Source: Acidimicrobiia bacterium (GTDB lineage: Bacteria > Actinomycetota > Acidimicrobiia > Acidimicrobiales > Aldehydirespiratoraceae). From it: DNA of 45,869 nt. The number at the start of each line of letters is the position of its first letter. The first letter of the stretch is position 1. The notes under the pieces are model-generated. The model saw only the letters and a program-made list of their open reading frames with translations. It had not been told where the DNA came from and did not search any database. Positions 523 through 3,187 of the stretch are shown one piece after another. The translations under genes and the position numbers were made by a program. The stretch is from the NCBI GenBank assembly GCA_024421085.1, contig JAHQYN010000016.1, forward strand, positions 1-45,869. The letters are read 5' to 3'.

Positions 523-624
523 GAACCGTCGATTCAACCCGATCATGCGCGGTCGTGGCACCCAATTTCCGTCTTGCTGCTGACGCGTCGAGTGGATCGA
601 GTGAGTCGAAGCCGCGTTCGACGG

Positions 625-1797
625 CTACTTGAGTATGTCCAGCACGGATTCGGCTATGGCTTGGCCCAGCAGTGGCGGTACAGCGTTGCCGATCTGCTTC
701 GCGATCTGTGTGCGTGTGCCGGAGAACACGAAGTCGTCGTCAAACGACTGCAGCCTTGCTCCCTCGCGCAGGGTGAGCGCACGGTCCTGGAAAGGGTGGA
801 TGCACTTGTTCGAAGCTGGGTGTACGAAGTTGACGGTCAGCGTCACCGCAGGTTCATCGGGATCGAGCCGCGAATAGCACGACGAGAATCCCGATGTGAT
901 CAGGTGTTGCGGTACGGAACTGATGTTCGAACCGGAATGGCGGATAATCTTGAGCATGCGTTCGGTGTGGCCCGTCGCCACATGGAGGTCAAGGTGGTTT
1001 GCACGCTGGCGCCGTGCCGCCTGATAGTCGTTCTGTGGGAGAAGGTCGTACTCGTTCGCGGCTTCGCCTGCGGCAACCGGGGGAAGATCCCCTATCGCCT
1101 CCATGGTGGTCAGCGCGGAGGGCAGTTTCGACTCTTCGTCGATTGCGAACAGTTCTGGTTGATCGGGAAGTGGTGGTGGTAGGAGCCGCCGTGCAGGGTC
1201 GCGAACGCCGATTGTGCGGAACTCGCCTGCGTGAGTTGGCGAGGGGAACCGGGGTTTGCTTCCATGTTGAACGCCGACCATCACGAGGCGCTCCCGCTTC
1301 TGAGGAACGCCGAAATGGGCCGCGTTGAGAATTCGCCAGTCCGACGTGTAGCCGAGCATGTCGAAGCGGTCCTGCATCTGTTCGATTGATGTCCCGCGGT
1401 TGTGGGTAGCCAGGCCCACAACGTTCTCCATCACGAACACGGGCGGTCTGAAGTAGCTGACGTATCCAGCGAACTCTTCAAAAAGCGAGTTCCGCGGGTC
1501 GTCCTCGACAGCGGACCGAAATGGGCGGATCGACGAGAAGCCCTGGCAAGGAGGCCCTCCCACGATAACGTCCACTTCGCCCTGCTTCAGCTTGGCTCGG
1601 TGCGACACGTGCTCAAGTGGTACTTTCCGTATGTCCTCGTTGAGCGCGATCGCGGCTGAGTGGTTGAGGCGAAAGGTCTCAATAGCGGCAGGCAGCACAT
1701 CGATGCCGAACACGACGGAGAAGACACCTGTGTTCTCGAACCCTTTCGAGAACCCGCCCGTGCCACAGAACAGGTCCATCACTTTCAGTTGGGCCAT
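625..1797 (-). CDS. DNA (cytosine-5) methyltransferase of a type II R-M system
   Basis: A 390-residue C5-MTase with the canonical motif order: motif I DLFCGTGGF (8-16), the catalytic PCQ loop of motif IV GGPPCQGFS with Cys84, motif VI ENV (124-126), motif VIII QKRER (166-170), a target-recognition stretch, motif IX RLDPDEPAVTLT and motif X QIGNAVPP near the C terminus. It transfers methyl from SAM to C5 of cytosine in a specific DNA site; the site cannot be read from sequence. A strong Shine-Dalgarno (GGAGGTGGAG) lies just upstream of ATG 1797, whereas the divergent nuclease gene has none. This asymmetry would favour methylation before cleavage. The gene faces the HTH-nuclease gene at 1888 across 90 bp carrying a perfect palindrome. 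Confidence 0.93.
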   Translation of the reverse strand: MAQLKVMDLFCGTGGFSKGFENTGVFSVVFGIDVLPAAIETFRLNHSAAIALNEDIRKVPLEHVSHRAKLKQGEVDVIVGGPPCQGFSSIRPFRSAVEDDPRNSLFEEFAGYVSYFRPPVFVMENVVGLATHNRGTSIEQMQDRFDMLGYTSDWRILNAAHFGVPQKRERLVMVGVQHGSKPRFPSPTHAGEFRTIGVRDPARRLLPPPLPDQPELFAIDEESKLPSALTTMEAIGDLPPVAAGEAANEYDLLPQNDYQAARRQRANHLDLHVATGHTERMLKIIRHSGSNISSVPQHLITSGFSSCYSRLDPDEPAVTLTVNFVHPASNKCIHPFQDRALTLREGARLQSFDDDFVFSGTRTQIAKQIGNAVPPLLGQAIAESVLDILK

Positions 1798-1831
1798 TCC
1801 GCTCCACCTCCATTACTTGGAAGAGTACGAC

Positions 1832-1855
1832 TCTATGAGACTATAGTCTCATAGA
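1832..1855. promoter_or_regulatory. 24-bp perfect palindrome, putative operator between M and R genes
   Basis: The bases from 1832 to 1855 equal their own reverse complement, centred between 1843 and 1844; the core is GAGACTATAGTCTC. The GACT..AGTC half-sites recall the C-boxes bound by XRE-family controller (C) proteins of R-M systems. The site lies 34 bp upstream of the methylase start and 32 bp upstream of the HTH-nuclease start, the right place for a shared operator. A possible -10 (TACGAT, 1874-1879) is only 8 bp before ATG 1888, so the nuclease mRNA may be leaderless, as C-controlled transcripts often are. Binding by the adjacent HTH domain is inferred. Confidence 0.7.
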
Positions 1856-1887
1856 CGTGTCTCTCGCTGGTCATACGATTGTAAACC

Positions 1888-2793
1888 ATGGGTACGACAC
1901 CTCTCGAGGATCATGCAGACGACGCGGCAAGAACGTTGGCTCGAGCCGTGGGCGCGATTGTCGCCAGACTCCGCGGTGAACGCAATTGGTCATTAGAGGA
2001 CCTCGCAGATGAAGCTGGTCGCCATCGCACTCACATCGGACTTGTTGAGAGAGGCGAGCGACACCTCAGTGTTGCGGCAGCATTTCGTCTCGCCCAAGCG
2101 CTGGGCCTGCCACTCTCTGATCTCATCAAGCTTGCAGAAGCCCAGGTGGCGGGGACGAACGCCCCGGTCCACTATCCGCCGCGGGTATCCCCGACTGGTG
2201 CAAGCCGTGGCATCACAGCCACACGTTCCGTCACCGGATTGGATGAGGAATGGATCCCCTCCGCCATCGAGTCCACCTACGCGACACTGGATCGGATCGA
2301 TGAGCAGCTCGTCAATACAGGAACACGACCCCTCGCCGAGGTGGTAGAGCTGGCCAATCTGTCTGCGATCATAGGCAACCTCCTGAGATCGGCCCTGCAT
2401 GGGAACTCCGGTGGTGTCTACGAGAGCAACGCTCCCCACCAGTTCCCCGACCTTGTGTCTCGGCGTGGAACCTCCCAGAATCTGGAGATCAAGGTTGCGC
2501 TTGAAGGCAACATGCCGAAGGGGCACCTGCCGAAACCTGGAGCGCACCTGCTCTGCCGCTACGTTCTTGCCGATCGTGACGGCAGCTACACACGCGGTGA
2601 AAGGGGCAACGTCGTCTGGATTTGGGAAGTCCGACTTGGAGAGTTGTTTGAGGACGACTTCAACGTGTCGAACACCCCGGGGGATTCGGGCAAGACCGCA
2701 GTCATCGGTGCTGCGGCTTTCTATCGACTGACCTGCGTCTACTACGACGAACGGTTTCGCCCCATCGCCAAGCCTCGCGCCGGTCACAACTAA
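1888..2793 (+). CDS. XRE-type HTH protein fused to a PD-(D/E)xK nuclease (probable restriction endonuclease)
   Basis: 301 residues. Residues about 17-84 form an XRE/Cro helix-turn-helix (LARAVGAIVARLRGE.., WSLEDLADEAGRHRTHIGLVERG, SVAAAFRLAQALG). After a linker, residues about 180-295 hold a candidate nuclease core, P187-D188 followed by E200-I-K202 (PD-x11-ExK), then KGHLPKPG, RGERGNVVWIWEV and NTPGDSGKTAVI. The divergent C5-MTase makes this the likely cognate restriction enzyme. Fusion of a controller-type HTH to the nuclease would let one protein both repress or activate the locus and cleave DNA. I do not recognise the specific REase family, and the target site is unknown. No Shine-Dalgarno is seen before ATG 1888, which suggests weak or leaderless translation. 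A stand-alone regulator with a non-catalytic C-terminal domain is the alternative. Confidence 0.75.
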   Translation: MGTTPLEDHADDAARTLARAVGAIVARLRGERNWSLEDLADEAGRHRTHIGLVERGERHLSVAAAFRLAQALGLPLSDLIKLAEAQVAGTNAPVHYPPRVSPTGASRGITATRSVTGLDEEWIPSAIESTYATLDRIDEQLVNTGTRPLAEVVELANLSAIIGNLLRSALHGNSGGVYESNAPHQFPDLVSRRGTSQNLEIKVALEGNMPKGHLPKPGAHLLCRYVLADRDGSYTRGERGNVVWIWEVRLGELFEDDFNVSNTPGDSGKTAVIGAAAFYRLTCVYYDERFRPIAKPRAGHN

Positions 2794-2928: not shown

Positions 2929-3016
2929 TGGCGGAGGGTGTGGGATTTGAACCCACGGAGGCTTGCACCTCACACGCTTTCCAAGCGTGCCCATTCGGCC
3001 GCTCTGGCAACCCTCC
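2929..3016 (-). tRNA. tRNA-Ser (GGA anticodon)
   Basis: The minus strand gives an 88-nt class II tRNA with encoded CCA. The acceptor GGAGGGT (3016-3010) pairs with ACCCTCC (2939-2933). The anticodon arm CACGC-TTGGAAA-GCGTG gives anticodon GGA (reads UCC/UCU), a long variable arm follows, and the T-arm is GTGGG-TTCAAAT-CCCAC. A run of seven T (2926-2920 on the minus strand) lies just past the CCA end. The gene is divergent from the SRP RNA. Confidence 0.97.
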
Positions 3017-3084: not shown

Positions 3085-3187
3085 TGGCGGTCGGGTCCTG
3101 TGCAACAGGCGTCCGTGAACCGGGTCAGGGCCGGAAGGCAGCAGCTCTCAGCGGCGCCGCCTGTGTGCCGCAGACAGCCTGGCCGTC
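3085..3187 (+). ncRNA. ffs: Signal recognition particle RNA (small bacterial, 4.5S type)
   Basis: The diagnostic SRP domain IV is present: GTGAACCGGGTCAGGGCCGG followed by AAGGCAGCAGC (3115-3145), with the GGAA tetraloop and the asymmetric internal loop bound by Ffh. The flanks pair as a long hairpin, with GTGGCGGTC..GGTCCTGT on the 5' side complementary to ACAGCCTGGCCGTCAC on the 3' side, allowing G-U pairs. The RNA scaffolds Ffh for co-translational targeting to the membrane. Its place just upstream of dnaX is typical of actinobacteria. The exact ends are estimated from the pairing. A possible -10 (TAGCAT) lies at 3053-3058. Confidence 0.9.

Follow-up and report, generated by a model that had tools for sequence, protein, structure and literature searches.

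A predicted fusion of a controller protein with a PD-(D/E)xK restriction endonuclease outside the PvuII family in an Acidimicrobiia genome

Introduction

In published controller (C) systems, the OL operator serves activation and the OR operator serves repression (PMC4824078; PMC3115060). Mutation of OL in Csp231I abolishes activation, whilst mutation of OR abolishes repression, and the transcripts of C genes are commonly leaderless (PMC4824078). Fusions between a C protein and a restriction endonuclease (REase) have also been described. Liang and Blumenthal (2013) reported five of these in the PvuII family, with REase portions 50-69% identical to R.PvuII, and CR.NsoJS138I was found to cut DNA and to activate its own promoter 23-fold (PMC3850674).

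Here we describe a locus from an Acidimicrobiia bacterium of the Aldehydirespiratoraceae. The stretch of DNA analysed, referred to as the window, comprises the 45,869 nucleotides at positions 1 to 45,869 of contig JAHQYN010000016.1 (assembly GCA_024421085.1). Judged from sequence and structural models, it probably carries a Type II restriction-modification (RM) module in which C protein and REase form one polypeptide ('CR'), the gene of a cytosine-5 (C5) methyltransferase (MTase) is divergent, and the nuclease is produced late and in a C-dependent manner. The idea of a C-REase fusion was already published in 2013; by its sequence, the CR protein found here is a variant with a REase of another family. 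It shares with CR.NsoJS138I and the other PvuII-family fusions an N-terminal C-protein HTH, a C-terminal REase (here a putative Type II enzyme), an MTase gene that is usually divergent, an upstream C-box and occurrence in distant phyla. Its linker of ~30 aa also resembles that of the cyanobacterial members. Unlike theirs, the REase here has no sequence similarity to R.PvuII and resembles it only at the level of the fold (Z 5.1), the MTase is a C5 enzyme, and only one palindrome was seen. The PvuII MTase is an N4 enzyme.

The locus can equally be set beside C.AhdI, C.BclI, C.Esp1396I and C.PvuII, with which it shares HTH homology, GACT..AGTC half-sites, a likely leaderless transcript and a fixed distance from box to start codon. 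Those regulators are separate small C proteins with both OL and OR (GACT-tat-AGTC twice, with GT between), whereas the CR protein is fused and no OR can be recognised before its gene.

Results

The CR gene (1888..2793, forward strand) was assigned by homology and modelling; it starts with ATG and encodes 301 aa. Its HTH domain spans approximately residues 21-84 (1948..2139, forward strand). The best PADLOC match for the N-terminus was Control_protein (2.2e-11, residues 24-83), Pfam HTH_3 matched residues 26-79 (2.7e-10), and matches among PDB sequences were C.BclI (1.2e-8, residues 18-84), C.AhdI (7e-4) and C.Esp1396I (4e-3). On these matches, the N-terminus is an HTH of the C family. Alignment and sequence delimit a linker of about 30 aa (residues 85-116; 2140..2235, forward strand), which leads to the predicted PD-(D/E)xK REase domain (approximately residues 117-301; 2236..2790, forward strand), recognised from the model, from PDB structure matches and from a profile match to a family of stand-alone REase-like proteins. 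Release of a free REase from an internal translation start in the linker was considered and rejected, because reading of the linker sequence revealed no start supported by a Shine-Dalgarno (SD) sequence. A frameshift artefact was also rejected as the source of the fusion, since assemblies independent of one another contain the same uninterrupted fusion.

The two halves of the putative catalytic motif are P187-D188 (2446..2451, forward strand) and E200-I201-K202 (2485..2493, forward strand). P187, D188, K202, H213 and T270 are invariant in 21 aligned relatives with identity down to ~15%, and E200 is kept in all of these except L009, which has Gly. An earlier note, made from the DNA sequence alone, had placed an XRE HTH and the P187-D188/E200-I-K202 core in one chain, and the open reading frame, the HTH matches and the motif conservation all agree with it. 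Pfam, NCBIfam and PDB sequence searches with the REase domain gave no match. The PvuII chain was absent from both the phmmer (E<=1) and the profile search (E<=10) of PDB sequences; as R.PvuII is present in the PDB, this lack of a sequence match places CR outside the PvuII family. Comparison of the fused-family profile with that of the stand-alone family by hhalign gave Prob 98 and E 4e-14, with PD..EIK aligned on PD..E[IV]K.

A full-length AlphaFold2 model built from a shallow alignment reached a pLDDT of only 57 in the C-terminal half and was set aside. With the distant stand-alone relatives added to the alignment, residues 100-301 were modelled at pLDDT 84.7 and pTM 0.83. Restriction endonucleases led the Foldseek results for this model (NaeI with E 7e-4, then EcoRV, PvuII and DpnI). 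NaeI also came top in VIA-align (Z 10.2, 152 residues, 3.5 Å), with further Z-values of 7.7 for SwaI, 7.1 for both NhoI and DpnI, 6.6 for EcoRV, 6.1 for SfiI, 6.0 for BglI and 5.1 for PvuII, and HincII was also among the PDB structure matches. Single middling Z-values carry little weight, and a Z of 5-10 speaks to fold rather than function. The C-terminal half was thus read as a PD-(D/E)xK nuclease because enzymes of this kind dominate the match lists and the motif is present. The fold check of residues 100-301 suggested in the earlier note therefore favours its reading, as nearly all top matches are PD-(D/E)xK restriction enzymes; going by the model, the domain has that fold. The NaeI endonuclease domain (PDB 1iaw, 1ev7) is the closest solved fold and shares the PD-(D/E)xK core, as do EcoRV/SwaI-type REases, but NaeI is only 10% identical, its own second domain is unrelated and it has no C-protein HTH.

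The structural matches also bear on two other readings of the protein. DpnI and NhoI are among them, which could suit a nuclease that depends on methylation (Type IV/IIM-like) or has no role in restriction, and that lies beside a methylase by chance. We find this scarcely credible, because MTase and CR occur together in every complete fused locus examined, plasmid and viral contig included, and the stand-alone relatives are likewise paired with MTases. REases with an additional DNA-binding domain are also well known, NaeI, EcoRII and DpnI being examples, and the HTH might accordingly be an accessory DNA-recognition or effector domain of a plain two-domain restriction enzyme. This is very unlikely, since a C-box palindrome precedes each fused gene and the host genome has a single copy of it; moreover, in split relatives the HTH is encoded by a small C gene of its own, and stand-alone relatives adjoin MTases even though they lack the HTH.

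The divergent gene (625..1797, reverse strand) encodes a DNA (cytosine-5) methyltransferase of 390 aa (PF00145, 5.2e-66; TIGR00675, 1.2e-62), so the C5-MTase of the earlier note is confirmed in both type and orientation. It has an SD-like GGAGG ~9 nt before its ATG, within a stretch read from the sequence as GGAGGTGGAG (1803..1812, reverse strand), and the CR gene has none. A search for the MTase promoter found one weak candidate. The earlier note had found this difference in keeping with an order in which the DNA is protected first. The difference itself stands, but we dropped protection through the missing SD, because the CR start codon follows a conserved TANNNT box by 7-9 nt, which favours a leaderless mRNA. 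Leaderless CR mRNA is probably the best explanation of the missing SD, which is then probably no device for weak translation.

The C-box core, GAGACTATAGTCTC, is a perfect 14-bp palindrome of the form GACT-AT-AGTC (1837..1850). It occurs once in the 3.5-Mb assembly, with no second copy at <=1 mismatch. The core is conserved between Acidimicrobiia and Psychrobacter; L029 (GGGACAATAGTCTC) is the only fused locus that departs from it, and the split locus L012 has one mismatch. The start codon lies 37-39 nt past the C-box in 12 of 13 loci (60 nt in L026), and most loci have a TANNNT that follows the box by 23-25 nt and precedes the start codon by 7-9 nt. This position is occupied in the window by TACGAT (1874..1879, forward strand), 8 nt before the ATG, a putative -10 box of the CR promoter. 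From this spacing we infer that CR transcription starts near 1886, that the ATG at 1888 is leaderless and that the box is centred near -42.

Two boxes stand in tandem in the split locus L028, on an Acidiphilium plasmid, and 38 nt separate the end of the distal box from the ATG. As the distance to the ATG is the same, the single box of the fused family would sit at OL. In the 38 nt after the box of the fused loci, no second GACT-N2/3-AGTC scored better than in shuffled sequence, although a degenerate OR is conceivable; the same search returned a perfect second box in L028, its positive control. Self-repression of the OR type thus seems to be missing or replaced, as no second operator is recognisable.

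A single operator without a recognisable OR would also be compatible with an HTH that is a pure autorepressor, binding the one palindrome, repressing the CR and/or MTase promoter and keeping the nuclease low. In favour of this, the palindrome lies between two divergent genes and reads TATAGT on either strand, and general repressors (RstR, HipB-like) are also among the HTH matches. Three observations nevertheless make pure autorepression unlikely. The centre of the site lies ~42 bp ahead of the predicted transcription start, the usual (class II) position of an activator; its distance to the start codon is that of the distal box in L028; and the best HTH matches are C proteins.

Around the C-box, the window has an extended perfect palindrome of 24 bp (1832..1855), the arms of which covary among loci. 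The palindrome measures 30 bp in L003 and L007, 26 bp in L008, 24 bp in L002, L004 and L005 and 22 bp in L034, and complementary arms are absent from L006, L009, L012, L026 and L029. The arm sequences vary between loci with their self-complementarity kept in most Acidimicrobiia loci, and the C-G to A-T change that separates L002 from L004 is a compensated one. Consecutive paired arm positions totalled 42; when arms were exchanged between loci 20,000 times, the mean was 6.5 and the highest total 31, with the caveat that related loci are not independent. Taken as MTase-strand RNA, the arms are predicted to form strong hairpins (z -2.4 to -4.3). Coevolution with the protein was rejected as the sole cause of the covariation: L002 and L003 share the HTH recognition segment and differ in their arms, so recognition by protein alone is insufficient. 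The covariation may stem from a hairpin of the MTase leader, from a cruciform or from template-switch mutation that perfects inverted repeats. We also entertain, as a tentative and rather doubtful possibility, a one-operator circuit in which the palindrome serves as activator site for CR and repressor site for the MTase. Folding back on itself, as a hairpin in the MTase leader RNA or as a DNA cruciform, it would add a further layer of control, and fusion, loss of an operator and hairpin would jointly take the place of the OL/OR switch.

Relatives of CR were found in species genomes (ten), on a Psychrobacter plasmid (one) and on a viral contig (one), and distant stand-alone relatives form a further set on plasmids and viral contigs. 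Of the 191 matches within the phylum, most were to the HTH alone, and these were disregarded. Searching viral contigs with the full-length CR protein gave no match, and a profile of the nuclease domain gave one fused relative there. Across ten loci (the window and nine more, including the Psychrobacter plasmid) the MTase-CR pair is the only common feature. By blastn and this recurrence test, the extent of the module common to relatives is 620..2793, with DNA similarity running out at about these positions, and the flanks differ. The earlier note would have been contradicted by a separate REase beside such relatives; at the nine relative loci nothing recurs besides the MTase gene and the CR gene. 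A hidden separate REase beside the module was rejected, as there is no third recurring gene.

Three relatives encode the C and nuclease halves in separate, adjacent genes. In L011 (Bacteroidetes) the C gene is followed by the REase gene; in L012, from the same class as the window, the open reading frames overlap and two SD-like stretches, GGGAGG and GAGGGAG, precede the REase ATG; and in L028 the two genes share an ATGA overlap. Split relatives and a recurring two-gene module are what the fusion reading predicts. The proposal of a controller-like HTH fused to a PD-(D/E)xK nuclease is hence supported by the C-protein matches, the C-terminal fold, the pairing with an MTase and the split relatives. 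A tree of the REase domain agrees with a single fusion event, though its support is weak (79/72).

Several individual loci showed further features. In L009 (5001-5885), E200 is replaced by Gly and the arms are not complementary, whilst both are intact in its neighbour L007, where the flanking genes are similar. The L009 nuclease is possibly inactivated, and with this substitution not every copy of the family need be active. In L011 (5824-7242) the C5-MTase is extended at its N-terminus by an HTH-like segment, like autoregulators of the M.SsoII type, and by this analogy both C and M may act as regulators there. Directly 3' of the CR fusion on the viral contig (L029, 3659-4836) lies an open reading frame for a Vsr-like patch-repair endonuclease, expected beside a C5-MTase. 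In the Streptococcus suis prophage phi-SsuHCJ31 (L027, 4926-5517), a frameshifted remnant of the same nuclease domain adjoins a SnaBI-like RM system.

The stand-alone REase-like proteins (Acidiphilium pACMV5, 4.9-kb Klebsiella plasmids, Rhizobium, Gordonia and phages) resemble CR in their homologous nuclease domain, PD..E[IV]K motif and neighbouring MTase. They differ in lacking the HTH and in having an MTase of the DPPY (amino) type where this was read, and the Acidiphilium REase has a separate C gene with tandem C-boxes. 'Hypothetical proteins' with PD..E[IV]K that are homologous to the CR REase domain and adjoin DNA methyltransferase genes were noted at L041 (2489-3094) and L042-L055, carried by small Klebsiella, Rhizobium and Gordonia plasmids and by viral contigs.

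In the window, the module adjoins the 3' end of a tRNA-Ser gene (2929-3016), followed by SRP RNA (3089-3187) and dnaX. From 2929/2931 onward, the region aligns with four other genomes of the genus, and the module side is unmatched. Horizontal acquisition of the module next to a tRNA gene would agree with this pattern, of which the contig shows only the one boundary. No repeat of the tRNA-Ser end that could serve as an attachment site was found in 1-2900, the contig starting at base 1.

Discussion

If CR activates its own promoter, as we prefer to read the locus, establishment in a new cell would begin with translation of the MTase from a normal SD, and the DNA would be protected first. The CR promoter, with a -10 box, no good -35 and a leaderless mRNA, would at first yield only a trickle. 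CR dimers would then bind the palindrome centred ~42 bp before the predicted transcription start and activate their own promoter, making the rise of the nuclease late and steep. The delay of the nuclease would on this model come from C-dependent transcription. As this site also precedes the MTase gene, CR binding may damp the MTase as well, and fusion in one chain would fix regulator and nuclease at 1:1.

These results suggest that fusion of C regulator and REase is not confined to the PvuII family, and that the CR module is recurrent: several Acidimicrobiia carry it, as do a viral contig and a Psychrobacter plasmid. A group of 'hypothetical proteins' from plasmids and phages can now be tied to one REase family. 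The natural contrast between fused and split loci, together with the apparent loss of the repression operator, makes the question posed by Liang and Blumenthal directly testable: how fusion affects expression timing, and whether the C and REase halves compete for dimerisation.
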